A DNA stretch of 64,000 bases from Methanolinea sp. (GTDB lineage Archaea; Halobacteriota; Methanomicrobia; Methanomicrobiales; Methanospirillaceae), in NCBI GenBank assembly GCA_024518585.1, contig JANIHI010000005.1, positions 1-64,000 on the forward strand, in the 5' to 3' direction. The first letter of the stretch is position 1, and each line of letters opens with the position of its first letter. The position numbers were made by a program, and so were the translations under genes. Below, piece by piece: positions 4,138-64,000 of this stretch. The notes under the pieces were generated by a model, which had not been told where the DNA came from, did not search any database, and saw nothing but the letters and a program-made list of their open reading frames with translations.

Positions 4138-4141
4138 GTGC

Positions 4142-5140
4142 ATGGTGCGGGGAGAAGACCTGGCAGTTCCCGGAGAAGGAGAAGCAGACCTGGACGATGC
4201 GGTCATCCGGCCGGAGCGGTTCTCCGAGTTCGTGGGGCAGGATCTCCTCAAGGAAACGCTCCAAATTGCGATCGACGCTGCCCGGGCGAGGGGTGAACCC
4301 CTTGACCACACGCTCTTTTCCGGGCCTCCCGGCCTCGGCAAGACAACCCTGGCCCACATTATTGCACGGGAGATGGGAACGACTCTCCACTGCACGAGCG
4401 GGCCCGTCCTCGAGAAGCCCGGTGACCTGGCTGCAATCCTCACCCTCCTCAAGAGGGGAGACGTGCTCTTCATTGATGAGATCCACCGCCTCCATACCGT
4501 CATCGAGGAGATCCTGTACCCGGCAATGGAAGATTTCTGCATCGACGTCATGATCGGGGAAGGTCCCAGTGCCCGTTCCATCAAGATCACTCTCGAGCCC
4601 TTCACGCTGGTGGGGGCAACCACGAGGGTCGGCCTCCTTGGTTCACCCTTCCGTGACCGCTTCGGGATCGTCGTCCGGTTAAACCTCTACAGTACAGAGG
4701 AACTTGCCCGGATCGTCACCCGGAGCGCAGGGATCATGAAAGTCCCTATCCTCCCGGAGGGAGCGTACGAGATCGCAAAGAGGAGCCGGGGAACCCCCCG
4801 GATTGCCAACCGGCTCCTCCGCCGTGTCGGGGACTACGCACTAGTCAGGGGTGACGGGGTCATATCCCGGGAGGTCGCAGACCAGGCGCTCACGCTACTT
4901 GGGGTCGATGGGCTTGGCCTCGATGAAGTGGACAGGCGCATTTTGCATACCATCGTTCACCAGTTCGGGGGAGGTCCCGTCGGCCTCAAGACGATTGCCA
5001 TTGCCGTTGGCGAGGACAGCCGCACGATCGAGGACGTCCATGAACCCTACCTCATCCAGGCGGGTCTCATCAAGCGGACACCCAAGGGCAGGGAGGCAAC
5101 CCCGGCAGCGAGGGGACACCTCTCCCGGCAGTGGTGGTGA
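4142..5140 (+). CDS. ruvB: Holliday junction DNA helicase RuvB
   Basis: A 332-aa AAA+ motor, hexameric on DNA, which drives branch migration with RuvA. Walker [12 protein letters not shown] (about residue 59), Walker [11 protein letters not shown] (about 110), sensor/arginine region [10 protein letters not shown], and the winged-helix C-terminus ([30 protein letters not shown]) are all intact; the length is that of bacterial RuvB. Last gene of ruvCAB. The upstream 40 residues ([27 protein letters not shown]) are acidic, as in many RuvB proteins. Confidence 0.96.
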
Positions 5141-24645: not shown

Positions 24646-24670
24646 GATATCTCCGTTACAGGTTCCATGC

Positions 24671-27600: not shown

Positions 27601-27907
27601 ACCAGAATCCTTTTCCCTCCGTACCGAGGAATGGCGAGGTCGGACCATCATCTATGTTGAAATTTGTGAGAACATACCCGGAAAGATCTATCTGCCGGTC
27701 GGGTGGGTTACTCATGCTTGATGTTGAATCCCACCATGCGATATACGAAGCACTCCCTATGGCACCGGTGACGTCAAGCCCCTCCTCTCCAAGGAGTACA
27801 GTCCCGTTTTGGGGGACCACATTCAATTGCGCCGATACCGGCATCGCGACGGTGAGGAGTGCGATACCTATTACTAACGAGAAGAGCACAGAGTGTCGAA
27901 GCTTCAT
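24671..27907 (-). CDS. large DUF3821/PKD surface protein with Cys-rich insert
   Basis: A 1078-aa exported protein from ATG 27907, preceded by a strong Shine-Dalgarno (ggtggtg); 22 upstream codons of the frame are not used. Signal peptide 1-27. The first domain (NVVPQNGTVLLGEEGLDVTGAI...YIAWWD) is DUF3821-like, typical of methanogen surface proteins. About residues 310-404 contain 14 cysteines. Beta domains follow, then one PKD domain (WRFGDGYTSTDENPLHVY), a Thr/Pro linker and a C-terminal domain with repeated PGWNFISTP / PGWNAIGFAG turns ending ENPPWVLS. No TM anchor is seen. The neighbour encoded 25 bp downstream does have one, which suggests that the two may form a complex. S-layer or sheath role is inference. 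Confidence 0.85.
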   Translation of the reverse strand: MKLRHSVLFSLVIGIALLTVAMPVSAQLNVVPQNGTVLLGEEGLDVTGAIGSASYIAWWDSTSSMSNPPDRQIDLSGYVLTNFNIDDGPTSPFLGTEGKGFWWRLYSPGQTNPTEPAFKVVAPEAILRIKDLGPSAVVYNTDVTDSTALIGDILDFELTQSSLHYIFLRDPTATFNCKIVVRGPGGVTYNKLWSPTPPTSTQRSLTNLAVNSSPWYWSSGNGTVHFKNNGWKTNAIDPVTSFPVYSPGEYQVSIECNENKLAFSGTIKTVTLEEEQPVLTVSPASLIRGNKFYTTVKGIPNTYYIIWIKDCIACPNGCCGDPMSGACCDQPPMITPGQEGVVFSDQYAPFRASCPHTTGSVCDMYTMCVDCGCGQWRPGDGGTDGGDYYTIGDTLIEWCGCYCTKKLYEIIPHNPAGGKYYYALVYTDEKGERTIEWQTSTCTAPSSYKIHTQRWIKNDVCEIDPTRPYAEACVNVLKGVVTINTDVCGEISSEGYLGETIRIFGTNTDSRTTYLFITGPCQSCAGEDMNATKTVVNGNASTFTAVPVRSDGSWEYRWVTRNLQIDLGEYTIYATSMPNDAPTLEGVPCTECSGVGVTCAAWAKKSFTFLEPTITGTISPKVLKIVCCVPPSITVSGTVTGMRGEAIGQQYNTVPLGFWVFGENKVAGQKYVFDTVFPDCNTGQFTINLANYVNTLALEPGTYTVVVQHPMYNHRLDIIPETKICDQSDWCPWLRFDPAVLRDEVWYPDINKKFVVTATPVRWSKLFVIEGPDRLAGTEALNALLRGFDDPNIDDNILVLTFKVESNTALQADFSGSPTYGPAPLSVQFTDISTGSPASWEWRFGDGYTSTDENPLHVYESPGTYAVTLTITGVSGTSSTTKNGYITVTAGPTSTVTPTPTPTMPPVSTIVLNPGWNFISTPRVLADGSNTIGTVFAGVDTGGRSIYLYDASTGSWNAMTATDLFKPLDGIWVYSTTPKQVNLVFKAGGASTPPTKNVYPGWNAIGFAGEEARSAQAALATVNDEPRKKWAQVVGWNALIQSYDTPIANVYPDSTALMYPTKGYWLFMNGENPPWVLS

Positions 27908-28471
27908 TTTGCACCACCTTGATTGCATATAACAAGAGAGGTATCCCGGACGTCCACCTTGGGGATGATCCACTCTTTTATATGGTGAGGGTTAAGGTGG
28001 ATTTATTTATATATTTTTCCATCGCTCCTTTTGGTGAATGACCCTCCGTGCTCACCGGGACTCCGATTCCGGGGGGAGTCCGGAGAAATCGGGAAGTCTA
28101 ATTCCTATATAAATTTATCTCATTTACAAACCCGTCCCGCTTTTTTCGGGCAATCTCAAAAGTTCGTCATTTTCTCATTAAATGAAAAAATAACAGTAAT
28201 ATTCGATTTTTTGGGAAGGAAAACAGTCCGTGCTGGTAGTATAGGAATGGAAGATTCCGGAAAGGATGACCCAAAAGAGGGGAAAACAATTTTCCTGCGC
28301 TCTCAACGATCTGAAAAAACCTGACGGTCTCGCTACACCCCATGGGAATGGTGCCCCCTGCTCCTGCGAATGCAATACCCGGATATTTCAGCCGGGTGGA
28401 ATTTTTCTGTCTTTTATAGTGGATTGAAAAGACGGAAAAAAAGGAGTCCTGGTCTATTGCGTTAACCAGCC
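27908..28471. other. 564-bp AT-rich intergenic region between two surface genes
   Basis: No convincing gene: the open frames here have AT-rich composition and no family resemblance. The right end has the terminator of the 1154-aa gene. The left end holds the promoter of the 1078-aa gene, with TATA-like blocks read on the minus strand at 27975-27983 and 28004-28014. In between is an imperfect hairpin at 28055-28083 (ccgggactcc / ggagtccgg arms) and an isolated TATA-like ctatataaattt near 28115. A small RNA cannot be excluded. Confidence 0.5.
28436..28442 (-). terminator. T7 terminator of the 1154-aa surface gene
   Basis: Seven T on the minus strand, 30 bp after the stop codon at 28472, followed by a second T4 run. 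This is the usual archaeal intrinsic signal. Confidence 0.55.
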
Positions 28472-31400
28472 TCACTCAGGAGGGCTGCCACCCCTCGGCC
28501 TTATCCTGAAGAGGTAGACAGCGGCACCTGCGACAACGGCGACAACAACGGCAACGATGACCAGGAAGGATCCCGGGATCTGTGGGCCTGCCGGGGTCGT
28601 GGGGATTACAGGTGTCTCTGTCGGGACTGGTGTCCCCTTCGGGGCCCAGGCGAACAGGCCATAGATACCACCATGGGTAAGGGGAGCGCTCACTGTGTGG
28701 CGAACCTGGTCCACGGTCGTCGGGAGAGGTACCCAGGTCCCGACCGCCGGGTCAAACCGCATCAGCACGAGTTCGCGGCCGGCAAGCTCACTCCACTCAT
28801 CAGGCGTAAAGGAGAACGTCAGGACTGCACCCGGGTCAAAACGAGCCGTATCAGGCGTGACCCTGCAGGCATATCCCATGAACGCGGGGTCTTGGGGCAG
28901 GGGGGGCAGTTCGCCGCCGGGAACCATTGCCATCCCGATGTCGGCGAGGCGCTCGCCACCGGCACCGGTGACCTCAACACCCGTGCCGATGGTGAGGGTA
29001 ACCCTGCCGTCCGATGAACCGATCGTGACCGGCTGCGTCGTCCTGTTGTCCGGGCCGAGCGGGAGGGGACCACTGCGGGTGACGGTCGGGGTGGGTGTGA
29101 CTGTCGCTGACGGAGTGGGGGTCCCGGTGATCATAAAGACGCCACTACCGCCCCCTCCACCACCGCCGCCACCTCCACCGCCCCTGCGGGATGCGATGAT
29201 GTAATTGGGCCTCGCGAGGGTATCTGTCGCTGTGCCGTTCGAAACGGTGAGCGTTACCGAGTACCCGCCGGGCTCATTGTAAACATGCACCGGGTTCTGC
29301 TCCGAGGAATACGTCCCGTCCCCGAACGTCCAGTTCCACGAGGTCGGGTGTCCGGTCGATGCGTCAGCAAAGATGACACTCAAGGGAATGAACCCGGAAG
29401 TCGGGGCCCCTGCAAAGTCGGCACGGAGTCCGGGAGGTGGTGGAGTAATCCCCGAGACGTTGATGTAGCCGGTCCTGACCCGGGTGTGTGTGCCATAGTC
29501 GTTGGCCACCGTCAGGGTTACCGTGTAGCGACCGGCGTAGCTGTAGACGTGGACCGGGTTCTGCAGCGTCGAGATACCACCGTCACCAAATGTCCAGGAC
29601 CATACCGTGGGTCCGCCGGATGAGAGATCCTCGAAGGCAACGTTGAGAGGTGCATCGCCGGATGTGACGTTTGCGGTGAAATCAGCGACCGGCGGAAGGC
29701 CGAATGCCCGGATGAAACCGGCCTTTGTCTCGGTATCGATACCTCCCAGTCCCCTCACGCGGAGGGAGACGGTGAAGTTACCGGGACCGGTGTAGATGTG
29801 GACCGGGTTCCTCTCCGTCGAGGTCCCGCCGTCGCCAAACGACCAGACCCATTCGTAAATTGACCCGCTGGAGAGGTCAGTGAACTGGACAGGCAGCGGC
29901 ACGGGCCCGGATGTCACATTGGCTGCAAACTCCGCGACAGGCGGGGGTGGGACGGCCACGACCGTGATGTAGTCCGTCCGCGTCTTTGTCGAGGGAGTCC
30001 CGTTTCCCTGCCGGACTGTCAGGAAGACGGTATATTTGCCGACAGAGGTGTATGTATGCGTTGGATTGGCCGCCGTTGAGGAGCCACCGTCACCGAATGA
30101 CCATGACCACGTATCATGGGCACCGGTGGAAGTGTCCGTGAACTGGACCGTCAGGGGCACGAACCCCGCAGTGGGGTCCGCCGTGAAGTCTGCCTGGAGG
30201 GGCAGGGGAGTGGGAGTCGGTGTCGGAGTTGTCGGAGTCGGAGTCGTCGGAGTCGGAGTCGGGGTCGGAGTCGGTGTCGGTACCGGTGCCGTCACGTTGA
30301 TGTACTGGACCTTCTGCCCGGTATCGGCGCCGAAAGCGTTGGTTACCGTCAGGGTGACGTTATAGAGGCCGGGAGAATTGTAGGTATGGGTTGGGTTGAC
30401 CACAGTGCTGTTGGAAGACCCGTCGCCGAAATTCCATTGGCTAGTCATCGGGGGCGTCCCTGATGACATATCCGTGAACTGGACGGCGAGGGGGGCCGGC
30501 CCCTCGGTCCGGTTCGCAGTGAAGTTGGCGAGGGGTGAACTCCCGAGTGCTATTCCTGCACGGTCGAGGGCAACAATTGTGTTATTACTGTCTGACCCGA
30601 GGGCATAGAGGGAGAAATTGCCATCGAGGAGTCCCTGGAGGTCACCGTGGGGGATGGTGACCTGGCTGCTGTGGAGTGCGTACCCGGACGTCCCATAGCC
30701 CGGGGTAATATTGATCTTTGAGAAATGGGTCGAATGGGGGGGTGTTGCGTTCCCGACGGCAAAGATGGAGTAGGAGACCACTTTTTTGAAGTCATCGGGA
30801 CCAAGGCCGTTCTCCCTGAGTATCGTGAGGAACGGATTCCCGGAGAGGATATGTTCGGGGCTTACCGAACCGCCAACTTCCTCGAGGGCCGTCATGTTCA
30901 CCCGGACGGTGGCATCATAGGTCTCGTTGTCCTTGACAAGGAGGTAGCTGATGTTGTGCACCGGGGCCGGGTTGCCGAAGGTGAGGACGAGATCCGCCCC
31001 GGACCTCTTGTCGTAGGTGTAAGGGGCTGACTTCCCGACCAGGGAGAGGGGATTGTCACCGTCAGTAATCAGCACCGGCCAGGCGGCATAGGTGGAGGCA
31101 TTTTCATCGGAAGGGGAATACCTGAAGGCAAAGAGGATGTAATCTCCCGGTGTTGGAGGTGCACCTGTTACATTCGGATCCAGACCGGATACCCATTTGG
31201 CATACGTGGGATTGAGAGTCCAGTCTGTAAAGGAAAATTCGTTGCGGACGAGTGTATATCCAAAATCAGATTCATTGTAATCGGTTGGGTGACTCCAGGA
31301 ACCATACGCCCCCACTACGAGAGGATGCTGTTGGATCGCAAGAACGCCCCGCCAGTCATGCATGAGGTATGCTCTTTCTGTTGATTGGATGAGATCGGAG

Positions 31401-31936
31401 ATATCCTTGTGACGGGTAGATGCATTGACTTTTAAGAAGAAAACATTCCCATAAGCTTCCGGGACCTGAACCCGGGTTCTTGGAAGGTATGGCCTGATAA
31501 AAAATGCATATTCTGCAAGTCCGCTCCCCGACACGTTTGTATCAATACCACCGAGTATCGTGAGGGTGTTGCCCTGCCAGCTTGCAGTATTTTTTGAAAA
31601 AATGCGGCGGATATTGCCAATATCCGGGAACGGTATCTTTTTTAGGTCAGAATTATCGCCGACCGTCGAGAAGAGCGTAACCCGCGAGACGGAGAGGTCC
31701 ATGGTATCGACGACCTCCAGTGATGAAACTGTCATGTTCTTGTAGGCCTGGGTCTGGTTCAGGTCGAGCCGTGCAAAAGCAGGGGGTGCTGCACTGGTGG
31801 ACTGGACAGCCAGTAACCCCAGCACGAGGACGAGGACCAGGGCACCCCCTATACCCTTGCCGTTTCTTTCCCGTCGTGTTTTGAAAGAGCACGTCCCTTC
31901 AACATGAGGTACGAGACCTCTGTCAGTGTATTGCAT
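28472..31936 (-). CDS. five-PKD surface protein with C-terminal membrane anchor
   Basis: A 1154-aa exported protein from ATG 31936 (MQYTDRGLVPHVEG), preceded by GGAGG; the frame extends 27 codons further. A twin-arginine-like but probably Sec signal ends near ALVLVLVLGLLAVQSTSA. Residues of about 50-470 form an N-terminal beta region that I cannot assign. Five PKD domains follow (each with a WxFGDG core: NFGDGSSNS, SFGDGGSST, SFGDGGTST, TFGDGGIST, TFGDGTYSS), a TP-repeat linker between the first two, then a Gly-run, a TP linker, a beta domain ending THGGIYGLFAWAP, and a TM helix with RIRPRGG tail. Its C-terminal half is organised like that of the 628-aa protein. Role in the outer envelope is inferred. 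Confidence 0.85.
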   Translation of the reverse strand: MQYTDRGLVPHVEGTCSFKTRRERNGKGIGGALVLVLVLGLLAVQSTSAAPPAFARLDLNQTQAYKNMTVSSLEVVDTMDLSVSRVTLFSTVGDNSDLKKIPFPDIGNIRRIFSKNTASWQGNTLTILGGIDTNVSGSGLAEYAFFIRPYLPRTRVQVPEAYGNVFFLKVNASTRHKDISDLIQSTERAYLMHDWRGVLAIQQHPLVVGAYGSWSHPTDYNESDFGYTLVRNEFSFTDWTLNPTYAKWVSGLDPNVTGAPPTPGDYILFAFRYSPSDENASTYAAWPVLITDGDNPLSLVGKSAPYTYDKRSGADLVLTFGNPAPVHNISYLLVKDNETYDATVRVNMTALEEVGGSVSPEHILSGNPFLTILRENGLGPDDFKKVVSYSIFAVGNATPPHSTHFSKINITPGYGTSGYALHSSQVTIPHGDLQGLLDGNFSLYALGSDSNNTIVALDRAGIALGSSPLANFTANRTEGPAPLAVQFTDMSSGTPPMTSQWNFGDGSSNSTVVNPTHTYNSPGLYNVTLTVTNAFGADTGQKVQYINVTAPVPTPTPTPTPTPTTPTPTTPTPTPTPLPLQADFTADPTAGFVPLTVQFTDTSTGAHDTWSWSFGDGGSSTAANPTHTYTSVGKYTVFLTVRQGNGTPSTKTRTDYITVVAVPPPPVAEFAANVTSGPVPLPVQFTDLSSGSIYEWVWSFGDGGTSTERNPVHIYTGPGNFTVSLRVRGLGGIDTETKAGFIRAFGLPPVADFTANVTSGDAPLNVAFEDLSSGGPTVWSWTFGDGGISTLQNPVHVYSYAGRYTVTLTVANDYGTHTRVRTGYINVSGITPPPPGLRADFAGAPTSGFIPLSVIFADASTGHPTSWNWTFGDGTYSSEQNPVHVYNEPGGYSVTLTVSNGTATDTLARPNYIIASRRGGGGGGGGGGGGSGVFMITGTPTPSATVTPTPTVTRSGPLPLGPDNRTTQPVTIGSSDGRVTLTIGTGVEVTGAGGERLADIGMAMVPGGELPPLPQDPAFMGYACRVTPDTARFDPGAVLTFSFTPDEWSELAGRELVLMRFDPAVGTWVPLPTTVDQVRHTVSAPLTHGGIYGLFAWAPKGTPVPTETPVIPTTPAGPQIPGSFLVIVAVVVAVVAGAAVYLFRIRPRGGSPPE

Positions 31937-32236
31937 TCCCCTCCATCTCCTCCGTCTTTGGAACCCTCCCAAAAGGGCCCCTACACATTTATATATGGTG
32001 CTTGTACGAGGATACATTTAAATGTATGGGAAAAAAAGTCATTTTTGGACCTGAATTTCCCTTTGGAGAGGTACTAAAGGAGCGCGCTACTAACCATAGT
32101 CCAGGAGTGGATCCCCCGCGGTCTTGTCTCCCCTGTTCAACGAAAAATTCTCCTTCCCGGCAGGGAGAGGAGAGGTCTATTGTTTCATCCCTGGAAGAGC
32201 ACCGGATTGATAATAACGAACCGGTAATACTACACT
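31937..32236. promoter_or_regulatory. divergent promoter region of two surface genes
   Basis: This 300-bp gap has no gene. Minus strand: a TATA box (atatataaat, 31988-31997) for the 1154-aa gene. Plus strand: a TATA-like gataataa (about 32208-32216), 25 bp before the ATG at 32237, giving a nearly leaderless start. Between them is the perfect 16-bp palindrome reported separately. Confidence 0.5.
32012..32027. promoter_or_regulatory. perfect 16-bp palindrome upstream of surface gene
   Basis: ATACATTTAAATGTAT, perfectly symmetric, lies 15 bp upstream of the minus-strand TATA box of the 1154-aa gene. The position suits a regulator site; no factor can be named. Confidence 0.45.
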
Positions 32237-50804: not shown

Positions 50805-52946
50805 TCAGATGAGCTTGATGAAACCACTCTTTGGTTCCATCGCTTCGCCTTCCCGGAGGAAAAGCTCTATCTGGGCCTTGATCTCTTCCCGGGAAAATCC
50901 CTGGGGCGTGATGATGTCCATCAGCTCGGCCACGGCGACGCGATCATTCCCGGTATCCTTCTGGATCTGGCGGATTGTCTGCTTGATGGTCCTGATGAGG
51001 TCCCTCCTACCCTTGGAAATACCGCTTGATACCCTGTCAATATCGAAGGTCCCCGTCTTGGGATCGTACGCCACCTCGCGCAGGCAGGAGTCAACGATCT
51101 TGATGACGCGTTCTGCGTCATCCTTTGTGATCTCAGGGGAGAGGCGGATCCGTGCACTTGCCTCTGCAAGCCGGACAAGTGCCTCGAGTTGCCGGGCCGT
51201 GATGGGGACGGGCTTGTCAGAGCCGGTCGCTATGTCACGGAGTTTCATGTAATACGCGGATAGGGCCTCCCGTGCATCATCCGTCAGCCGGGGGAAACAG
51301 GTCCGTCGTGCGTAGGCCACGTATTTGCGGAAGAGAGAGGGGTCGATCTCCGGGGTCACTGGAGTGAGCTGCTCCTCGATGTACTTCTCGTCCACACCAG
51401 GGATCGGGTTCTTTTTGTGCTGGGCTATCGTCTCCCCGATACTGTGGGCCTTGAGGATGTGGGCAGCAATGGCGCTGTCCCGCGTGTGGTCTGGCCTGTC
51501 ACTCATCTTGAAAATGAGGTCAAACCGGGAGAGGAGCGACCCTGGCATGTTGATCTGGTCATGGATCGGGGTATAATCATCAAACCTCCCCAGTTTGGGG
51601 TTTGCGGCACCGAGGAGGGCACAGCGGGACTTGAGGGTTGCCGTGATCCCCGCTTTTGCAACGGATATCGTCTGTTGTTCCATTGCCTCGTGCAGGGCTG
51701 AACGGTCCTCCTTCTGCATCTTGTCCATCTCGTCGACGGCAGCAATGCCCATGTCTGCAAGGACGAGTGCCCCTGCCTCGAGCGTCCAGCGGCCGTCCCC
51801 AAACTCGTCCTTTACTGCCGTTGCCGTGAGGCCTGCCGAGGTGGAGGACTGCCCGCTGGTATAGATCGCACGGGGAGAGAGCTTGACGACGTACCTGAGC
51901 AGCTGGCTCTTGGCAACCCCCGGGTCCCCAATCAGCAGGACGTGGATGTCCCCCCGCAGGTGACTTCCGTCAGGCATCTCTTTGCTGATACCTCCAAAGA
52001 GCTGGAGGGCGATAGCCTCCTTGACATCCTCGTTCCCGTAGATCGTCGGGGCGATGGAGTGGATGATCTTGCGGTAGACATGGGGATCGCGGGAGAGGGC
52101 AAGGATGACCCCCTCGTCCTTTTCATCGATCTGGACCTCTTCAAATTCCTTCTCGGCGATCTCGATGGAGTTACACTCAAGGTAGATGTCAAAGATGGTA
52201 TTTTTCTCCCCGTGGGTGACCCGCTGGACCGATCGCAGGATCCCGTTGATGATCACGCGGTCCCCCGGTGCAACTTTGCCCGTCAGGTCATCGGTAACGT
52301 CCACGTCGAGGGTCTGGGGTTGCTCTCCACCCCGCAGGCCTTCCGGAGACTCCTGGATCCGTATTTTCTGGGAGTCAACGAAACGGGAACGGCGGGGCAT
52401 CAATTCCAGTTTCTTGAAAGTACACCCCTCGGTTGCACACCCCTCCGGCTCCTTGAAGCGCCCGTATCCCTGTTCCTTTATCGTGATGTGGCCGGCGGGA
52501 CACCGGAATACTGCCTGCACGATACGGGGCCTGACTTCCGTGGTCTTTCGCAGGATCCCTTCCACGCTGATGAACTTGTTGATATGGTCTGAGCGTATCT
52601 GCCGTATCCCGATCTTGCGGGGCAGGTTGAAGAACCGGACGTTGACGTCACCGGTGGGCTTTCCATCCCTCCCCTTAATGAGCTGGTGGTTCTTTATGGC
52701 TGATTTGACATCTTCGATGACCTTTCCGGGGTTTTCGAGGAGTTCATCAGCAAGCTGGAGGCCGGTTTTACCATAGCTCTCCAGCTCCCGGTAGTCGATC
52801 TCAAGGGAGCGCCGGTAGGGGTATTCCCTTGCCAGTTCTGAGAGGTGCTTCCTGTACCTGCTCTTGAGGAACTTGCTCCAGTCTGCATCGCGATCGATGA
52901 CCTCGGCATCCAGCTCAGGCCCGGGGGCGGTCTCTTTTCTCTTCAT
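50805..52946 (-). CDS. mcm: replicative minichromosome maintenance helicase MCM
   Basis: A 713-aa MCM. The N-terminal domain has a zinc site with CPAGH...CATEGC, and the AAA domain Walker [15 protein letters not shown], Walker [20 protein letters not shown] signature and arginine finger [15 protein letters not shown]-terminal winged helix ends the chain ([22 protein letters not shown]). No intein interrupts it. It unwinds DNA at the fork as a hexamer. The ATG overlaps the rfcS stop by 4 nt, tying clamp loader and helicase production. Confidence 0.97.
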
Positions 52947-53908
52947 TTTTTCCGCGAGAGGAGAACGAACCGGGCAACCATGGCTTCCATCTGGATGTCA
53001 CTGCTGGCACCTTCCGAGAGTCGGAAATCGGTGGTGCCCAGCTGGTCGATGAGGGCGACACGGACCTCCGGGTCCATGTCCCGCTTGATGATTGCACGGT
53101 AACACTGGTTAATCAGTTCATTGGGCGCGATACCACGGTCATCGAGCAGCCTGTGCATGACGGCGACTGCACCGTCAAAGTCACCCGAGAGGGAGGTGGA
53201 GAGGAGTTCCTCTATCTCGGCGGGACGGGCTGTTGCGGTAATGGCATAGACCCTGTCGCCGGTGATCTCGGGGGAGAGGATGGCAGCGCCCTGAAGGGCG
53301 TTGATGGCTTTTCTCATGTCGCCCTGGGCGATATCAACAATGGCATTGATTGCTTCTTCCGTCAACCGGAGGTTTTCCCTGTCGGCTATCCGCAGGATCT
53401 CCTTCGTGATTGCTTCGGGGGAGAGGCTCCTGAACCTGTAGATGGCACAGCGGCTCTGGATGGGGTCGATGATCCGGGACGAGTAATTGCAGGAGAGGAT
53501 GAACCGGCATGTCGATGCATAGCTCTCCATCGTCCTGCGCAGAGCTGCCTGGGCATCAGGGGTGAGAGCATCGGCCTCGTCAAGGAAGAGGATCTTGAAC
53601 TGTGCCCCCCCGAGCGGGGACGTCCGTGCGAATTGCTTGATCTGGTTCCTGACAACATCAATCCCCCTCTCGTCCGACGCATTCAGTTCCCGGAAGTTCA
53701 TGTGCCAGGACTCCCCGAAGAACTCCCGCGCCAGTGCAACGGCAGCCGTCGTCTTTCCGACACCTGCGCTGCCGGTAAAGAGGAGGTGGGGAAGGTTCCC
53801 GGTCCGGACGTAGGAAGAGAGCCGCTCGACGATCTGGTCCTGTCCCACGATATCGGCAAGCCTGACGGGGCGGTATTTCTCGATCCAGATCATGGTATTT
53901 TCGTCCAT
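52943..53908 (-). CDS. rfcS: replication factor C small subunit
   Basis: A 321-aa clamp-loader subunit: [25 protein letters not shown], Walker [18 protein letters not shown], Walker [19 protein letters not shown] motif [10 protein letters not shown] and the C-terminal collar. Loads PCNA with RfcL, whose gene is not here. Start at ATG 53908; an ATG five codons in also fits. First gene of the 12-gene minus-strand block, with a possible TATA (acataattc) in the 250-bp gap before it. Confidence 0.96.
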
Positions 53909-54159: not shown

Positions 54160-57100
54160 CTACTCTTCAAAGAGGGCCGCCTCGGCCTGTTGTCTCCTCC
54201 AGAAATAATACCCTATACCGGCAAGCGCCAGGATGATGATAATCAGCAATATAAGCCAGTAGAGGGAAAAGCCAGTCCACAGGGGGGTTGCCGGCGGGAT
54301 GGTCTGGGTGGGGCTGACGGGGATGGGCGTCTCTTCGGGGGTGATTTCGGGCGTCATGGTCACCGTGGGGGTTACATTGCCCCCTCCGCTCTCAAAGCCT
54401 CCGGACTCAACCGTGCCGACAATAGGTGTGACCGTGGGGGTCGGTGTGCTGATGGGCACTATCCAGCCCCCGCCACCGCCACCGCCCCCGCCACCGCCCC
54501 CGCCACCGGACGGGCCGAAGGTCGCGGAGATGGTGTGGTTCGAAACGACATTGGTAAACGTCCACTCCGGGAGCCCGCCCTTGCTGTCACCATCAACCAT
54601 CACGTTCCTGACCGAGAAGCCGGGATTGGGAACAATGGCAAACGTGATATTGGTGCCGGCAGGGACACTGACGAGGCCGGGAGGAATGATGGCCCCCCCG
54701 TCACCGGCGATGGCATTGATGTAGTACGTAACTGAACCTTCCGGCAGGAATACTGCTGACAGTGTGTGGTTCTGGGTCACGTTGGCAAATGTGTACTCGG
54801 GCGCCGGCGCAACACCCAACCCGTCGACGAGCAGACCGGCCGTGAAGTACCCTTCATGGGGGACTATCTGGAGGGTGAGGCTCCCCCCGTAGGGGACGAG
54901 GGTGACTCCCGGGGGAATGATTGTGCCGTTGGGAGAGGATAGAGCGGTGATGCTGAATGTGGCCTGTTCGAACTCGGCATGGAGGGTATGGTTGGCGGAA
55001 ATATTCGAGAGCCGGTAGCTCCGGAGTGCACCGATTCCTGTACCGTCGAGGAACAACTGCTTCACGTTATAGCCGGTACCCGGGATGACAGTGAAATCCT
55101 GGCTTGACCCGGCCGGGAGGGAGAGTGTCCCGTTCGGGATAATGGTCCCGTTTGGTCCGGCCGTTGCATTAATCGTATAGTTCACGGAGGGAATCGGTTC
55201 AAGGGTCGCATACAGGTCCACGACCTGGTCCCTGGACGGGTAGGTGGTAATGGGCTGTGTTACCGGGAAATAGCCCTCCTTTGCCACTGTAAAGGTGGTA
55301 TACGGCGCTGCGGTAACGTAGACCATCACGAGCAGGGTCCCGTTCTCTATCTGGCCCTTGTAGTCCTGGTTGAAGTGAACCGTTGCCCCGTCAACATTGC
55401 AATGTACCCTGAAGTAACCCCGGTCTCCACCGATACTGCCAAAGGCGTTGATGTAGCCTGACCGGGTATATGTCGAATTACCGTACTGATTGCTGACGGA
55501 GAGGCTCACGCTGTAGACTCCGGGGATATTGTAGACATGGACGGGGTTTCGCTCATTCGAAGTTCCACCGTCCCCAAAGTTCCAGGACCAGGTATCAGGG
55601 ACCCCTGTTGACCCATCCACGAACGCAACTGGCAGGGGAACAAACCCACTCGTTGTATTGGCAAGGAAATATGCCGATGGAGGCCCTGGCGGAGGCGAGG
55701 CAGATACTCGGATGTATCCCTGCTTGACCTTGCTATCGGATCCGCTCGCGTTTGTCACGGTCAGGCTGACGGTATAGTTTCCAGGTTGCTGATAGATGTG
55801 GATAGGCTCCTGTTCTGTGGAGGAGTATCCATCACCAAAGTCCCAGCTCCAGGTGAAGATGTCTGTTATGGAACAATCGCAGAACTGGACCTCCACGGGG
55901 GCATTCCCTGTAAGGGGATGGGCATAGAAGCAGGCAATGGGGGGATTTTCCGGTGGGGGGGACACGTGGACGAACTCGGGTTTGGTGGTGGAGTTGGAAC
56001 CACAGTCGTTCGTCACGGTGAGTGTGACATTGTATGTCCCAGGTGATATGTAGACGTGGGTGGGTGACTGTTCGGAGGACGTGCTGTCATCACCGAAGTC
56101 CCAGAGCCATTCGGTGGGGTTACCGGTGGAGAGGTCAGTGAACGAGACGTTGAGGGGCGCCTGTCCCGACGTTGGACTTGCAGAGAAGTCAGCGACCGGT
56201 GGGACACAGGGTGGATTGACGTGGACGAACTCGGGTTTGGTGGTGGAGTTGGAACCACAGTCGTTCGTCACGGTGAGTGTGACATTGTATGTGCCAGGTG
56301 ATATGTAGACGTGGGTGGGTGACTGTTCGGAGAACGATCCGCCGTCACCGAAATTCCACAGCCAATGCGTGGGGTTACCGGTGGAGAGGTCAGTGAACGA
56401 GACGTTGAGGGGCGCCTGTCCCGACGTTGGACTTGCAGAGAAGTCAGCGACCGGTGGGACACAGGGTGGATTGACGTGGACGAACTCGAGTTTGGTGGTG
56501 GAGTTGGAACCACAGTCGTTCGTCACGGTGAGGGTGACATTGTATGTGCCAGGTGAAGTGTAGACGTGGAATGGTTCCCGTTCGGAGGATGTGCTGTCAT
56601 CACCGAAGTCCCAGAGCCATTCGGTGGGTTCACCGGTGGAGAGGTCTATGAACGAGACGTTGAGGGGCGCCTGTCCCGACGTTGGACTTGCAGAGAAGTC
56701 AGCGACGGGGGGCACACAGGGTGGCTCGACATGGACGAACTCGAGTTTGGTGGTGGAGTTGGAACCACAGTCGTTCGTCACGGTGAGTGTGACATTGTAT
56801 GTCCCAGGTGATGTGTAGACGTGGAATGGTTCCTGTTCGGAGGACGTGCTGTCATCACCGAAGTCCCAGAGCCATTCGGTGGGGTTACCGGTGGAGAGGT
56901 CAGTGAACGAGACGTTGAGGGGAGCCAGTCCCGACGTTGGACTTGCAGAGAAGTCAGCGACCGGTGGGACACAGGGTGGATTGACGTGGATATACTCCTG
57001 TTTCGTAGTAGAGTTGGAACCACAGTCGTTCGTCACGGTGAGTGTGACATTGTATGTGCCAGGTGATATGTAGACGTGGGTGGGTGACTGTTCGGAGGAC

Positions 57101-60100
57101 GATCCGCCGTCACCGAAATTCCACAGCCAATGCGTGGGGTTACCGGTGGAGAGGTCTATGAACGAGACGTTGAGGGGCGCCTGTCCCGACGTTGGACTTG
57201 CAGAGAAGTCAGCGACGGGGGGCACACAGGGTGGCTCGACATGGACGAACTCGAGTTTGGTGGTGGAGTTGGAACCACAGTCGTTCGTCACGGTGAGTGT
57301 GACATTGTATGTCCCAGGTGATGTGTAGACGTGGAATGGTTCCTGTTCGGAGGACGTGCTGTCATCACCGAAGTCCCAGAGCCATTCGGTGGGGTTACCG
57401 GTGGAGAGGTCAGTGAACGAGACGTTGAGGGGAGCCAGTCCCGACGTTGGACTTGCAGAGAAGTCAGCGACCGGTGGGACACAGGGTGGCTCGACATGGA
57501 CGAACTCGGGTTTGGTGGTGGAGTTGGAACCACAGTCGTTCGTCACGGTGAGTGTGACATTGTAGGTTCCTGGTGTTGAGTAGACGTTGAAGGGTGACTG
57601 TTGAGAGGATGTGTTTCCATCTCCAAAGTCCCAATACCAGGTAGTGGGTTCACCGGTGGAGAGGTCAGTGAAGGAGACGTTGAGGGGCGCCTGACCCGAC
57701 GTTGGACTTGCAGAGAAGTCAGCGACGGGGGGCACACAGGGTGGCTCGACGTGGACGAACTCGAGTTTGGTGGTGGAGTTGGAACCACAGTCGTTCGTCA
57801 CGGTGAGTGTGACGTTGTATGTCCCAGGTGATATGTAGACGTGGAATGGTTCCTGTTCGGAGGACGTGCTGTCATCACCGAAGTCCCAGAGCCATTCGGT
57901 GGGGTTACCGGTGGAGAGGTCAGTGAACGAGACGTTGAGGGGAGCCAGTCCCGACGTTGGACTTGCGGAGAAGTCAGCGACCGGTGGGACACAGGGTTCG
58001 ACGTGGATATACTCATGCCTGACCGTCGTGTTGTACCCGCATTCGTTTGCGACTGTAAGTGTAACTGTATATAGTCCAGTCTGGGTATAGAGGTGGACAG
58101 GATTTCTGTCAAAGGATGTGCTGCCGTCCCCAAAGTCCCATTCCCAGATGAGGGGGTCACCAGTAGAGAGGTCAGTGAAGGAGACGTTGAGGGGCGCCTG
58201 TCCCGACGTGGGAGTTGCGGAGAAGTCAGCGATGGGGGGTTGGCAGGGTGGCGGGCATGGCCCCGAGAGTAACTTTGCGATGAAGCCTCCCGAACCCTTT
58301 GCCCCGAACGCCGGAGGATAGGGGTCTGATACCGGGAAGTTGGGGGAATCTGTAAAGCCCGTAATGTATGCCCCGCCGAATCCATCCCCGGCAACTGCTG
58401 CCCCGATATCGGTCATGTTTCCGCCCAGGTAAGTACTGTAACTGGGGATCCTGTTTCCGGGGCAGAACTTGACGACAAAGGCATCGGAGGCCTTGGGATC
58501 ACCGCCGCCAAAGACTCTCTGGTAGGGATCTACGAGGGGGAAATTGATAGAAGCCGTTGCACCGGTTATGTAAACCGTGTTCGTCGGGTCAGCAGAGATG
58601 CCCAGCCCCCTGTCATTGCACGAGCCGCCGAGGTAGGTTGAATACAGCAGGTCATCTCCTCCGGGAGACAGGTAACAGTAGAATGCATCCATTGCACCCC
58701 CTGAAACCGGCTGGAATGCATTTTTGACGGGAAATACACTGAGCAATGTCGACCCGGTGACATGGGCCCGCCCGGCCAGGTCAACGGCAATGCCATTTCC
58801 GGAATCTATCTGGGGGCCGCCAAGGTATGTTGAGTAGACGAATACTTCCCCCTCTCCCTTTGGGCTCACCTTCGTGACAAATGCATCGCTCCACTGGTCT
58901 CCCGCGAGCGAGGACTGGTAGGCGTTTTTCACCGGGAAATTCCTGGAGGAGGTCTCACCCGTGATGTATGCGTCTCCCAGGTAGTCGACAGCGATACCAT
59001 TCCCTGCGTCCATACCGCTGCCGCCCAGGAAGAGCGAGTAAATGAGTTCTTTTCCATCACCCCGGAGGTTGAGAACGAAAGCGTCCTGGTTTCCCCCGTA
59101 GGTCGTCAGGTTTGTATGGCTCACCGATGGGAAAACCGCCGATGTTGTGTTTCCCGTGATATATGCATTCCCGAACCTGTCGAGGGCAATGCCATTCCCT
59201 GAGTCAATGCCCACGCCCCCGAGATAGGTCGAGAATTCAAGTGCGGAGCCGTCAGGGGAGAGTTTGGTCAAAAATGCATCCGAATTTCCGGCCAGGAAAT
59301 CCTGGAGGGCGCCGGTCAGGGGGAAATCAGGAGAATCTGTCTCTCCCGTGACAAAGACCGAGCCATTCCTGTCGACGCTGATCCCCTTTCCCGTATCATT
59401 CCCCATTCCTCCCAGGTACGTCACGTACAGGGGTGTTGTCCCGTCAGGGTCAATTTTGGCAACCACGACGTCTGTTTCGGCACCCATGGTCCCGTAGGAA
59501 TCATCATAGGGAGTGTATGGTGCCGGGAACGTGGACCCTGTGACATAGGCGTTGTGGTCACTGTCAACGGCAATTGCCCTGCCGTAGGCAATACCAATCC
59601 CCTTGAGGTAAATCCCGTATTGAAGGGTCGGGTCGATCACAAGGGGGTATGCAGGGTCATAGTCTCCGACCGAGAAGCCGACGGTTTCATCGCCAATCAA
59701 AACAAAAGATGAATCCACAGGGACCTCTCTCCCGTTGATGGTCTGGTAACAGGCCGGTGCGTCCTCGACAAGTTCCCCTGCCGGGGTATGGATATGCAGT
59801 GCACCGTTTTCATCGATCGTGAGCTTTTCTGCACCCCAGTATTTCATGAGAATGGTATCCGGCTTTGTTCCGGGTTCCAGGGAAAAGACACTCTTGAGTC
59901 CCCCCGGGCCTCCCGTGTAGGTGAGGCAAACACCAGGGTAAAGTCCCCTGTAGGATATTGAACGAAACGTGGGGACATTCCTGTGCCACGAAGAGGGATC
60001 CCGTCCGGATATGAAACTGACATGGCATTCCAGGGGTTCACGCCCACTGATCTCCGTTTTCCGATCAGCCCCCACGAAAGTATATCCCACCCGTGTCGTC

Positions 60101-60429
60101 TCGAACGTCTCACCGTTCAGGGTGACAAGTTTCATGGTGACGCCGTCGGGAGAGAAAAAGAGTGAGCCCGTATCCGCAATGATCATGAACCCGACATGGT
60201 CTGGGCCCTGGCCGACATTTTCAACAAACCGGAGGGGTATGACCTCCAGGTCTCCCCGTACCTCTGTACAACCCCCTTCCCCACCGGGAAGAACGGGGGT
60301 GCTCCCGGTCACCGGTAGCAGGGACTGAGCCCCGGGGCGTTCGCCAGGAATGGAGAAGGCCGAGGCGGAGGCACCGGTACCAAGGAGCAGGACAAGTATA
60401 ACTAACCACGTGAGCCTTTTCGTCCTCAT
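54160..60429 (-). CDS. giant surface protein: beta-propeller repeats, 11 PKD domains, membrane anchor
   Basis: A 2089-aa exported protein. Signal peptide 1-24. A DUF7948-like domain (LRFVENVGQGPDHVGFMI...) runs to about 280. Seven SBBP-type beta-propeller repeats follow (GNAYVTG-like cores), to about 725. Eleven PKD domains at about 726-1660; numbers 2-9 are nearly identical 85-aa units. Then a PEGA-like domain, three InlB-like repeats (about 1745-1965), a Gly-run of more than 10, a TP linker, and a TM helix (about 2058-2080) with WRRQQ. Probably a long stalk projecting from the cell, for adhesion or an outer layer; inferred. TATA box on the minus strand at 60464-60473. Confidence 0.9.
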   Translation of the reverse strand: MRTKRLTWLVILVLLLGTGASASAFSIPGERPGAQSLLPVTGSTPVLPGGEGGCTEVRGDLEVIPLRFVENVGQGPDHVGFMIIADTGSLFFSPDGVTMKLVTLNGETFETTRVGYTFVGADRKTEISGREPLECHVSFISGRDPSSWHRNVPTFRSISYRGLYPGVCLTYTGGPGGLKSVFSLEPGTKPDTILMKYWGAEKLTIDENGALHIHTPAGELVEDAPACYQTINGREVPVDSSFVLIGDETVGFSVGDYDPAYPLVIDPTLQYGIYLKGIGIAYGRAIAVDSDHNAYVTGSTFPAPYTPYDDSYGTMGAETDVVVAKIDPDGTTPLYVTYLGGMGNDTGKGISVDRNGSVFVTGETDSPDFPLTGALQDFLAGNSDAFLTKLSPDGSALEFSTYLGGVGIDSGNGIALDRFGNAYITGNTTSAVFPSVSHTNLTTYGGNQDAFVLNLRGDGKELIYSLFLGGSGMDAGNGIAVDYLGDAYITGETSSRNFPVKNAYQSSLAGDQWSDAFVTKVSPKGEGEVFVYSTYLGGPQIDSGNGIAVDLAGRAHVTGSTLLSVFPVKNAFQPVSGGAMDAFYCYLSPGGDDLLYSTYLGGSCNDRGLGISADPTNTVYITGATASINFPLVDPYQRVFGGGDPKASDAFVVKFCPGNRIPSYSTYLGGNMTDIGAAVAGDGFGGAYITGFTDSPNFPVSDPYPPAFGAKGSGGFIAKLLSGPCPPPCQPPIADFSATPTSGQAPLNVSFTDLSTGDPLIWEWDFGDGSTSFDRNPVHLYTQTGLYTVTLTVANECGYNTTVRHEYIHVEPCVPPVADFSASPTSGLAPLNVSFTDLSTGNPTEWLWDFGDDSTSSEQEPFHVYISPGTYNVTLTVTNDCGSNSTTKLEFVHVEPPCVPPVADFSASPTSGQAPLNVSFTDLSTGEPTTWYWDFGDGNTSSQQSPFNVYSTPGTYNVTLTVTNDCGSNSTTKPEFVHVEPPCVPPVADFSASPTSGLAPLNVSFTDLSTGNPTEWLWDFGDDSTSSEQEPFHVYTSPGTYNVTLTVTNDCGSNSTTKLEFVHVEPPCVPPVADFSASPTSGQAPLNVSFIDLSTGNPTHWLWNFGDGGSSSEQSPTHVYISPGTYNVTLTVTNDCGSNSTTKQEYIHVNPPCVPPVADFSASPTSGLAPLNVSFTDLSTGNPTEWLWDFGDDSTSSEQEPFHVYTSPGTYNVTLTVTNDCGSNSTTKLEFVHVEPPCVPPVADFSASPTSGQAPLNVSFIDLSTGEPTEWLWDFGDDSTSSEREPFHVYTSPGTYNVTLTVTNDCGSNSTTKLEFVHVNPPCVPPVADFSASPTSGQAPLNVSFTDLSTGNPTHWLWNFGDGGSFSEQSPTHVYISPGTYNVTLTVTNDCGSNSTTKPEFVHVNPPCVPPVADFSASPTSGQAPLNVSFTDLSTGNPTEWLWDFGDDSTSSEQSPTHVYISPGTYNVTLTVTNDCGSNSTTKPEFVHVSPPPENPPIACFYAHPLTGNAPVEVQFCDCSITDIFTWSWDFGDGYSSTEQEPIHIYQQPGNYTVSLTVTNASGSDSKVKQGYIRVSASPPPGPPSAYFLANTTSGFVPLPVAFVDGSTGVPDTWSWNFGDGGTSNERNPVHVYNIPGVYSVSLSVSNQYGNSTYTRSGYINAFGSIGGDRGYFRVHCNVDGATVHFNQDYKGQIENGTLLVMVYVTAAPYTTFTVAKEGYFPVTQPITTYPSRDQVVDLYATLEPIPSVNYTINATAGPNGTIIPNGTLSLPAGSSQDFTVIPGTGYNVKQLFLDGTGIGALRSYRLSNISANHTLHAEFEQATFSITALSSPNGTIIPPGVTLVPYGGSLTLQIVPHEGYFTAGLLVDGLGVAPAPEYTFANVTQNHTLSAVFLPEGSVTYYINAIAGDGGAIIPPGLVSVPAGTNITFAIVPNPGFSVRNVMVDGDSKGGLPEWTFTNVVSNHTISATFGPSGGGGGGGGGGGGGGWIVPISTPTPTVTPIVGTVESGGFESGGGNVTPTVTMTPEITPEETPIPVSPTQTIPPATPLWTGFSLYWLILLIIIILALAGIGYYFWRRQQAEAALFEE
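55955..57995 (-). repeat. tandem array of eight 255-bp PKD repeats
   Basis: Eight direct repeats with a period of 255 bp (85 codons) lie within the giant surface gene. Two unit types are seen: A (GNPTEWLWDFGDDSTSSEQEPFHVY) and B (GNPTHWLWNFGDGGSSSEQSPTHVY). Sequence identity is so high at the DNA level that whole 81-82 codon shadow frames recur at steps of 255 and 510 bp. One unit has an A front and a B back, a hybrid. Confidence 0.9.
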
Positions 60430-60684: not shown

Positions 60685-61452
60685 ATGACATTCCAGAGAG
60701 TTTTTGCCGCGGAGCTGAATATCACAAAGGCACAGCTGACCACAGGGAAGAAGGGAGAGAAACCCCTCCTCACTCCGGGTGGCGCCCTCCTCTCGCGGGT
60801 CTTCTGTGCAGGAGCACTCATCGAACGTCACGGGTGCGGTGATGAGACTGCATATGCCAGGTTGGCAGATCCCACGGGGGCCTTCTCCCTTCAGGCAGAC
60901 CGACAGTCAATGGATGGAAAAACCATCCTCTGTGGACTGGAAATTCCCTGTTTCGTGACAGTAACCGGGAGACCGTTCCTCATCGGGTCAGGTGATTCGT
61001 CGCGTTGCATCATCAGGATCGAGGACATTCGGGCCGTCGACAGGTACGTAAGGGACGTGTGGGTTCTCCACACGGCGGGTCTTACCCTCAAAAGGCTTGC
61101 CGCGTTGGACACTGAACTTGGGACCGGAAACGGTGACCCCCGGATCGATGCCCTCCGGAGATGCTATAACCTTGATGGGGCACTCTTAAGGGAGATAGCA
61201 GGCCGGATCGCCGAGGCGGTCAGGTCAGTCCAGGTGAAACAGGTCTCCGTGCCGGTGCAGGCCAATCCCGCATCGGTCGTCCTTGGGATAATAAGGGAAC
61301 ACGGGGGAAAGGCAGGGATATCCCTCGACGAGATCACGAGGAGGGCGGTGGCCCATGGCCTCTCCCCGGACGAGGTAAAATCTGCCGTCGAGGTACTTTG
61401 CCGGGAAGATGAATGTTACCAGCCAGGAAGGGGTATTTACAAGGCCCTATGA
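60685..61452 (+). CDS. RPA-family OB-fold protein
   Basis: A 255-aa protein from ATG 60685 (MTFQRVFAAELN); the 49 upstream codons of the frame are promoter. It resembles the RPA family proteins of archaea (COG3390 type): RVFAAELNITKAQL...TPGGALLSRVFCAGALIE, ETAYARLADPTGAFSLQA (OB strands), and a C-terminal winged-helix-like domain (SLDEITRRAVAHGLSPDEVKSAVEVLCREDECYQPGRGIYKAL). Binds single-stranded DNA as part of the RPA complex. An A-rich/TATA-like stretch lies about 25 bp before ATG. Overlaps the next gene by 4 nt. Confidence 0.82.
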   Translation: MTFQRVFAAELNITKAQLTTGKKGEKPLLTPGGALLSRVFCAGALIERHGCGDETAYARLADPTGAFSLQADRQSMDGKTILCGLEIPCFVTVTGRPFLIGSGDSSRCIIRIEDIRAVDRYVRDVWVLHTAGLTLKRLAALDTELGTGNGDPRIDALRRCYNLDGALLREIAGRIAEAVRSVQVKQVSVPVQANPASVVLGIIREHGGKAGISLDEITRRAVAHGLSPDEVKSAVEVLCREDECYQPGRGIYKAL

Positions 61453-62219
61453 AACTTGAATTCATTGCCGATGGACCGGCGCTCCTCGTGAATCATTCCC
61501 AAAAGGTCCTTGTTGCGGCTGACCTTCACCTGGGAATAGAGCAGTTTCTCTCCGGCCGCGGCGTCCATATCAGGAGTCACAGCAGGGAGAGAATTGACCG
61601 TCTCACTCGCTGCATCAGCGCGGTTAAACCAGACATGCTTGTTCTCCTCGGTGATGTGAAACACAGCGTGCCCTTCCTGAGCCGGCAGGAACAAAAAGAA
61701 ATTCCCGGGTTCCTTGAAGAGCTCAGGGCACTCGTCCCCCTGGTTGTCCTTCCGGGGAACCATGACCCCGGCCTTGAGGAATTCCTCTGCCCCGGCGAGG
61801 TACTTCCCCGCGAAGGGGCAATCATTGACGGCATCGGCTATATCCATGGCCATACCTATCCGCACCCCGACCTCCAGGGGCACCTGATCGTCTCGGGCCA
61901 CCACCATATCCTCGTTACCGTCTGCGATGAAGTCGGATGCTCTCTCCGGTCAGCGGGATACCTCCTTGCACGTGGTCGGGATTCCTGCCTGCAGTTCCCC
62001 CCCGCAGGGGGGGATGACGGAGCGGGGACCCGTGTCCTCTTCATGCCTGCATTCAACGAACTTGCCGGTTACGATGTCGTCCGGATCGCGAGAGATCCCA
62101 TAAGCCCCCTTTCCCGCTGCATTGACACGTCCACCTCGGAGGTTTTCCTGGCGGACGGGACGTTTATTGGTCCTCTCTCGTCCCTGGAGGAGAATGGAGC
62201 TGATACAAACTCTCGATAA
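61449..62219 (+). CDS. helicase-associated metallophosphoesterase
   Basis: A 256-aa calcineurin-like phosphoesterase from ATG 61449. Motifs: VAADLHLGIEQ, VLLGDVKHSVPF, VVLPGNHDPGLEEF, and LIVSGHHHILVTV; both metal centres are complete. This COG1407-type group is found next to Lhr-like or DEAD helicases, as here. It overlaps the RPA gene by 4 nt and the helicase by 26 nt. A nuclease role in DNA repair is likely but unproven. Confidence 0.9.
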   Translation: MKLEFIADGPALLVNHSQKVLVAADLHLGIEQFLSGRGVHIRSHSRERIDRLTRCISAVKPDMLVLLGDVKHSVPFLSRQEQKEIPGFLEELRALVPLVVLPGNHDPGLEEFLCPGEVLPREGAIIDGIGYIHGHTYPHPDLQGHLIVSGHHHILVTVCDEVGCSLRSAGYLLARGRDSCLQFPPAGGDDGAGTRVLFMPAFNELAGYDVVRIARDPISPLSRCIDTSTSEVFLADGTFIGPLSSLEENGADTNSR

Positions 62220-64000
62220 GCGGGTCCAGGATGCCATCCGCGCCCGGGGCTTCTCCCGCCTCTCTGCGATCCAGGAGGCTGCCATTCCCCTTGTCAGGGA
62301 AGGCAGAAACCTGCTGCTCATTGCACCGACAGGGACTGGAAAGACAGAGAGCGCCATGATACCTGTCTTTGATGCGATGCTTTCCGGGAAGGGCCAGGGG
62401 ATCTCTACCCTCTACATCACGCCACTGCGTGCCCTCAACAGGGACATGCTCTCCCGCCTCTCCTGGTGGTGCCGTGAACTGGGTTTTTCCGTGGGGGTCC
62501 GGCACGGGGATACGTCCCAGACGGAGAGGAGGAGACAGGCACTTTCACCCCCCGACCTCCTGATCACGACCCCCGAGACACTGCAGGCCATCCTCATGGG
62601 AAAGGTGATTCGCAAGCACCTCGCGGGGGTGAAGTACGTCGTCGTGGATGAGATCCATGAACTGGCCGGGAGCAAGAGGGGAGCGCAGCTTGCGGTTGCC
62701 CTCGAGCGGATCCGGGAATATTCGGGAGAGTTCCAGAGGATCGGACTCTCTGCAACGGTCGGAAACCCGGAGGATGTCGGGCGGTTCCTCTGCGGCACGA
62801 GGGAATTCTCCATCGTGTCCGTGCCGGTGGCAGAGAGCCTTGACATATCCGTGGAGTTTGCCGGTGAATCCTTTGAATCCCAGTGCGAATGGGTATCCCG
62901 GGCAATCAATACGCATTCTTCCACCCTCGTCTTTGTCAACACACGCGTCACCGCGGAAGCCCTAGGGCATGTCCTCTACCCGAGGGGCGACGTGGAGGTG
63001 CACCACGGGTCCCTTTCCAAGGAAGTCAGGATAGATGCAGAGGAGAGGTTCAAAAAGGGGGAGGTCCGGTGTCTGATTGCCACTTCGTCGATGGAACTGG
63101 GGATTGATATCGGCCGGATAGAACACGTGGTTCAGTTTGGGTCACCCCGCGAGGTCATGAGGCTCGTGCAGCGGGTCGGCAGGGCCGGTCACCAGATGGA
63201 CATGCCCTCACGGGGAACCGTGCTTGCGACAGGTTTTGATGACCTCCTCGAGTCGCTCGTGATAGCGGGCAGGGCACGCAGGGGGCAGATCGAGGAGGTG
63301 ACCGTGCACCTGAAAGCCGCCGATGTCCTTGCAAACCAGATTGCGGCACTTGCGGTGGAATACAGGGAGATTGAAAAGTCACGCATCATGGAGATCGTCT
63401 GCAGGAGTTACCCCTTTTCCGGTGCAGAGGACCTCATCGATGCCGTCTGTGCCCAGATGGCCGAGCATCGACTGGTCAGGGTGGAGGGGGGACTGGTCCG
63501 GTCAGCGCAGCGGTCCCGCCGGTACCTCTCGTCTAACCTCTCCATGATACCAGACGAGCGGAAAGTGACGGTTTTTGACATGGTTTCCCGGAGGACTGTG
63601 GGCACCCTGGACGAGTCTTTCGTCGCGGGTTTCCTCCACACGGGAATCGTCTTTGTCACCAAGGGGCAGTTATGGAGGGTCCTTGATATCGAGGGGGGGA
63701 GGGTGACCGTGGAACCTGCACGAAAAATGAGGGGAGAGATCCCCTCGTGGGAAGGGGAGCAGATCCCGGTCCCGTTTTCGATTGCACGGGAAGTGGCCCT
63801 GCTCCGGAGGACGCGGGACTTTTCGTCGTACAAGGCAGCACCTGATGCCACGGCGTTTGCCTGCGGGGTGCTCCAGGAGATGGAGAAAAACCGGACACCG
63901 ATCCCGGAGGACACGCTTATCACTCTCGAAAATGTCCCTGATGGCGTCGTGTGCAATGTCTGTGCCGGTCACAAGGCAAATGAAGCCCTTGCCCGTGTGC
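62194..64000 (+). CDS. Lhr-type DEAD/DEAH superfamily 2 helicase (C-terminus cut by window edge)
   Basis: 602 codons are visible and open to the window end. ATG 62194 follows a GGAGG. Motif Q/I: FSRLSAIQEAAIPLVREGRNLLLIAPTGTGKTESAMIP; Ia YITPLRALNRDM; Ib TTPETLQAIL; II VVVDEIHELAGSKRGAQL; III GLSATVGN; and V-VI IATSSMELGIDIGRIEHVVQFGSPREVMRLVQRVGRAGHQ. The winged-helix region typical of Lhr follows. Lhr proteins are 3'-5' helicases in repair or RNA-DNA hybrid removal; full-length members are 850-950 aa. Confidence 0.94.
   Translation, partial: MELIQTLDKRVQDAIRARGFSRLSAIQEAAIPLVREGRNLLLIAPTGTGKTESAMIPVFDAMLSGKGQGISTLYITPLRALNRDMLSRLSWWCRELGFSVGVRHGDTSQTERRRQALSPPDLLITTPETLQAILMGKVIRKHLAGVKYVVVDEIHELAGSKRGAQLAVALERIREYSGEFQRIGLSATVGNPEDVGRFLCGTREFSIVSVPVAESLDISVEFAGESFESQCEWVSRAINTHSSTLVFVNTRVTAEALGHVLYPRGDVEVHHGSLSKEVRIDAEERFKKGEVRCLIATSSMELGIDIGRIEHVVQFGSPREVMRLVQRVGRAGHQMDMPSRGTVLATGFDDLLESLVIAGRARRGQIEEVTVHLKAADVLANQIAALAVEYREIEKSRIMEIVCRSYPFSGAEDLIDAVCAQMAEHRLVRVEGGLVRSAQRSRRYLSSNLSMIPDERKVTVFDMVSRRTVGTLDESFVAGFLHTGIVFVTKGQLWRVLDIEGGRVTVEPARKMRGEIPSWEGEQIPVPFSIAREVALLRRTRDFSSYKAAPDATAFACGVLQEMEKNRTPIPEDTLITLENVPDGVVCNVCAGHKANEALARV

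Follow-up and report, generated by a model that had tools for sequence, protein, structure and literature searches.

A homogenised tandem array of PKD domains in an archaeal propeller surface protein, probably shaped by recombination among its units

Archaeal surface proteins that combine a beta-propeller with PKD domains are known from Methanosarcina, where they belong to the surface layer (PDB 1l0q; Jing et al. 2002, cited in PMC6749651). Coding satellites with repeats of about 246-264 nt occur in this genus (PMC6749651), and archaeal surface proteins with tandem repeats have also been described (PMC2447325). In the parts of these sources considered, both groups of repeats are in-frame units of about 85 aa in surface-protein genes, and the 255-bp unit of the protein analysed here lies in this size range, whereas its host is of a different family, Methanoregulaceae. 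The protein shares the pairing of propeller and PKD with the 1l0q type, but its propeller is of the SBBP kind with DUF7948, not YVTN, and its PKD domains form a long homogenised array. The passages covered of PMC6749651 and PMC2447325 contain no analysis of homogenisation or mosaics.

The window, i.e., the whole stretch of 64,000 nucleotides that was analysed, belongs to a 1.78-Mb archaeal genome in 27 contigs, whose closest named relatives are Methanolinea MAGs. From the N- to the C-terminus, the 2089-aa protein consists of a signal peptide, DUF7948, the SBBP propeller, 11 PKD domains, a conserved C-terminal part bearing three repeats, a Gly run, a Thr/Pro-rich linker and a TM segment, with hydropathy peaks at aa 6-29 and aa 2047-2079. 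Both DUF7948 and SBBP were found by Pfam, as in SBBP/DUF7948 surface proteins, and as regards an S-layer lattice, a signal peptide and a TM anchor are the only relevant features seen. PF18911 matched in 11 stretches (Pfam, 709.5 bits, above the curated cut-off), and counting with our own HMM also gave 11 PKD domains. A 255-bp array of 8.9 copies was detected by TRF at 55964-58232 with a score of 3244, far beyond chance. In codon register it comprises nine units, the first diverged and units 2-9 of exactly 255 bp each, spanning 55954-57993, and two more diverged PKD domains follow unit 9. The features of the gene are listed below.

54160..60429, minus strand: surface-protein ORF, 2089 aa (ORF and translation, Pfam, hydropathy)
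59626..60228, minus strand: DUF7948 domain, aa 68-268 (PF25778, E=8e-53)
58270..59562, minus strand: SBBP beta-propeller repeats, approximately aa 290-720 (PF06739, E=3.9e-44, 4 stretches; limits approximate)
57994..58245, minus strand: PKD unit 1, diverged edge unit, 252 bp; pS 0.60 to unit 2, nearest to unit 1 of other species
57739..57993, minus strand: PKD unit 2, type A; 98.4% to units 4 and 6
57484..57738, minus strand: PKD unit 3, own type; 82-87% to all others
57229..57483, minus strand: PKD unit 4, type A; 100% to unit 6, the 348-bp exact repeat starts here
56974..57228, minus strand: PKD unit 5, type B; 94.5% to unit 8
56719..56973, minus strand: PKD unit 6, type A; identical to unit 4
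56464..56718, minus strand: PKD unit 7, mosaic of a unit-5-like front, A-like middle and back, and 5/8-like tail (triplet test p=5e-5)
56209..56463, minus strand: PKD unit 8, mosaic of A-like first columns and a type B middle (site pattern, mosaic tests)
55954..56208, minus strand: PKD unit 9, mosaic with an A-like front, B-like from about 56067, with later switches (informative sites)
55702..55947, minus strand: PKD domain 10, diverged edge unit, aa 1495-1576; nearest to the penultimate units of other species
55444..55686, minus strand: PKD domain 11, diverged edge unit, aa 1582-1662; nearest to the last units of other species
57142..57489, minus strand: 348-bp exact repeat, copy 1 (unit 4 and front of unit 5)
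56632..56979, minus strand: 348-bp exact repeat, copy 2 (unit 6 and front of unit 7), 510 bp from copy 1
54193..54291, minus strand: C-terminal TM segment with short basic tail (hydropathy; conserved in orthologues)

The eight 255-bp repeats that an earlier note on this DNA had described are present, in frame, as units 2-9 of the 11 PKD domains, and its limits match ours within 2 bp. It had called the repeats nearly identical, which is true of units 2, 4 and 6 and of units 5 and 8 but not of the other pairs, the pairwise DNA identity among units 2-9 being 82-100%. The alternation of types A and B that it had described is approximate only, not strict, as units 2-9 run A, own type, A, B, A, mosaic, mosaic-B, mosaic. 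The likeness of blocks 510 bp apart is real, with the longest exact repeat, 348 bp, at this lag (57489..57142 versus 56979..56632), but the effect is modest compared with other lags, the mean identity being 0.882 at 255 bp, 0.914 at 510 bp and 0.908 at 765 bp. Unit 9 does broadly join an A front to a B back, as the note had it, with sites 95-130 of type A and sites 141-160 of type B, but there are further switches on both sides.

Several results point to exchange of sequence among the units. In a PHI-type test with permuted site order and windows of 5 and 8 sites, compatible informative sites were clustered along the unit (p=4e-4), and the best mosaic triplets lay at the permutation floor (p=5e-5; 20,000 permutations, 336 triplets); the triplet values are uncorrected and bounded by the number of permutations, and the PHI result is the safer figure. 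Units 4 and 6 are identical at every synonymous site. The mean pS within units 2-9 is 0.193 (range 0-0.34), one third of the 0.596 found to the units of another species, genome G010, which supports recombination among units; for the same genome pair, pS is 0.578 in MCM, close to the value between the units, and 0.718 in the N-terminal domain. Unit 1 differs from unit 2 with a pS of 0.602, as large as between species. Across the orthologous arrays, 30 of 43 interior units had their nearest neighbour in the own genome, against 2 of 20 edge units, defined as the first and last two of each array (Fisher p=9e-6), and 18 of the 20 edge units were nearest to other species. The locus therefore displays the marks of a concerted array: within-species likeness of interior units, mosaics, and edge units that escape. 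Recombination among units, which the earlier note had read as unequal crossing over and gene conversion, is supported by mosaic tests, interior homogenisation, within-array pS and between-species differences in unit number, while independent diversification of units, which it had set against that reading, is true of units 1, 10 and 11 and rejected for units 2-9.

A five-PKD paralogue in the window, at 28472-32017, was available as an internal control, and its units are 25-58% alike in DNA. The lack of homogenisation there indicates that homogenisation is not general to PKD genes here, and the possibility that all PKD genes of the genome are homogenising was ruled out by this neighbour. Further PKD proteins of the window, at 22759-32017 (minus strand) and 5282-7285 (plus strand), have 628, 1100, 1181 and 667 aa; one carries DUF3821, one carries PEGA, and the five-PKD protein has strongly diverged units.

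Throughout the genus the orthologues lie at one syntenic position, with Lhr helicase/phosphoesterase on one side and RFC/MCM on the other, and much of the family shares this arrangement. The conserved neighbours in the window are as follows.

50805..52946, minus strand: MCM helicase gene (Pfam, synteny)
52943..53908, minus strand: RFC small-subunit-like gene (Pfam, synteny)
61413..62219, plus strand: metallophosphoesterase gene (Pfam, synteny)
62122..63999, plus strand: Lhr-type helicase gene, continuing past the window (Pfam, synteny)

The N-terminal domain of the surface protein is 60% identical to that of G010, and the adjacent MCM and RFC are 90-93% identical. Between these two genomes, the pN of this domain is 0.26 versus 0.05-0.06 for MCM/RFC, which indicates that the surface gene evolves fast. 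Complete arrays, i.e., those without a gap or contig end, with one genome per species compared, contain 11 PKD domains in the host (G000), 13 in G009, 9 in G002 and 7 in G005a, which between species contradicts the constant copy number that the earlier note had named as evidence against its reading. Genomes G009 and G002 are close relatives (Lhr 92% identical, fourfold-site difference 0.31). Units 1 and 9-13 of G009 pair one to one with units 1 and 5-9 of G002, and units 4-8 of G009 are mutually closest; judged from this pairing, the two arrays differ by units gained or lost in the middle. A search of the genus for another close strain of the host species found none. Genome G005 has two copies of the gene (L036/L059 and L037/L060) on separate contigs, one carrying the upstream and the other the downstream neighbours, and one of the copies is cut within its PKD array. 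At L064, two copies of the SBBP-PKD gene stand in a row, and the whole gene thus seems to undergo tandem duplication here as well.

The array is a difficult region for assembly. In relatives, N-gaps lie within it in G003, G007, G010, G019 and G035, and contig ends in G001, G005b, G011, G012, G021 and G025; gaps or contig ends in the PKD array were seen at L029, L030, L031, L032, L034, L039 and other loci. Because of these interruptions, the open-frame lengths of relatives were dropped as PKD counts, and gene length is under-recorded in short-read MAGs. The contig G000:C4 begins inside another PKD gene (match at bases 3-188), possibly another repeat-caused break. The 348-bp exact repeat exceeds the common short-read length and the host assembly has 27 contigs, so the host copy number may be wrong, and exact copy numbers, possibly including that of the host, are soft. 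That the repeat copies were made up, merged or wrongly joined in short-read assembly is nevertheless very unlikely as an explanation of the array. Such an artefact would agree with the difficulty of the exact repeat for short reads and with the breaks in the relatives' arrays, which make up 11 of 16 breaks in the gene against an expected 45% (p=0.045), a value for which we did not accept contig breaks as strong evidence of repeats. However, the window contains no N, the frame is open throughout, most units have private differences, and independent assemblies of other species also hold homogenised tandem arrays; an artefact would alter the count, not the phenomenon.

Serial tandem duplication, once or twice, followed by point mutation and with no gene conversion, could account for the exact recurrence of 348 bp at a 510-bp distance, which resembles a single two-unit duplication, and also for the extra middle units of G009 relative to G002. 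We consider this account improbable, since the clustering of compatible sites is what recombination predicts, and the conflicting blocks of different types in units 7, 8 and 9 do not fit a simple duplication tree and refute duplication alone. Least probable of all, and close to negligible, is purifying selection alone, under which every PKD domain would need the same sequence. That the WxFGD core is strongly conserved, as are two Cys in each of units 1-9, would accord with it, but synonymous sites are homogenised as well (pS 0-0.34 within the array versus about 0.6 between species), and units 1, 10 and 11 and the five-PKD paralogue tolerate wide divergence. Protein-level selection could add to the likeness of the units, though not at synonymous sites.

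We therefore hold it very probable that this is a surface protein with a propeller head, whose PKD stalk is an array recombining by unequal homologous recombination and gene conversion. A model of three units was predicted with a mean pLDDT of 96.6 as all beta, while its pTM of 0.64 does not fix the inter-domain angle. Its PDB matches include Ig-like chains and 1l0q, the archaeal YVTN-propeller/PKD S-layer structure, and the model and fold matches together assign the PKD units to the Ig-like beta-sandwich fold. Whole-chain TM-scores are low, 0.2-0.4, for this query, searched as one chain of three units, and we attribute them to differing domain angles. The two Cys kept in each of units 1-9 possibly form a disulphide stiffening the stalk. 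The 11 Ig-like PKD domains would form a stalk that bears the SBBP head and is anchored by the C-terminal TM helix, and from domain content and fold the likeliest role of the stalk is to hold the propeller off the membrane, the number of units setting its length. As for the mechanism, we infer that the in-frame 255-bp units would exchange by unequal homologous recombination and gene conversion, which would keep units 2-9 alike within a species, create mosaics and add or remove whole domains without a frameshift, while the units at the array ends (1, 10 and 11) would mostly escape. On this reading, array length would still vary today. In Haloferax, a polyploid archaeon, there is ample documentation of gene conversion (PMC8223754, PMC11276520), and homogenisation of the array thus needs no special machinery.

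The window also encodes a ruvCAB set, to which the earlier note had drawn attention.

3022-5140, plus strand: ruvC-ruvA-ruvB, bacterial-type, complete (Pfam)

The ruvCAB set is intact, as claimed, but uninformative for the array. Of 120 genomes sampled from the order, 59 have RuvC, and strong RuvB matches appear in every genus member, so the presence of these genes does not mark this array, and RuvCAB was rejected as evidence for an active one. RuvABC had been noted earlier in two Methanomicrobiales (PMC3403352). No Hjc was detectable in the host genome. Among the 120 genomes, 8 have both RuvC and Hjc, 51 RuvC only, 47 Hjc only and 14 neither (Fisher p=9e-13, a value that overstates independence as the genomes are related, and several Hjc matches are weak). 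RuvC and Hjc thus come close to excluding each other, which suggests that RuvCAB may have displaced the archaeal resolvase Hjc, a sensible hypothesis given that in Haloferax hjc deletion nearly abolishes gene conversion (PMC11276520). Only tentatively do we propose an active length-variation locus, with stalk reach differing from cell to cell and exchange resolved by RuvCAB in place of Hjc. If cells of one culture do differ in stalk length, the array would count as a contingency locus, in a lineage for which most knowledge comes from metagenomes.

With its controls by synteny, by edge versus interior units and by a paralogue, the locus provides a well-controlled archaeal example of length change by recombination of domain-sized repeats, and it carries a warning that short-read methanogen assemblies often break in the SBBP-PKD gene. 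The top fold match, GhpA of Aureispira (PDB 9flw), is likewise a long chain of beta-domains on the cell surface, but it is much larger, and at 15% identity the likeness need not reflect homology. As far as the cited passages go, the array resembles the WD-repeats of Podospora HNWD recognition proteins (PMC2873952) and the SD repeats of staphylococcal surface proteins (PMC3324548) in its in-frame units and changes of copy number, whereas those systems belong to other organisms and folds and strain variation is reported there, the comparison here being at the species level. Concerted evolution of a domain array is thus a known phenomenon, and this propeller/PKD surface protein illustrates it clearly for archaea.
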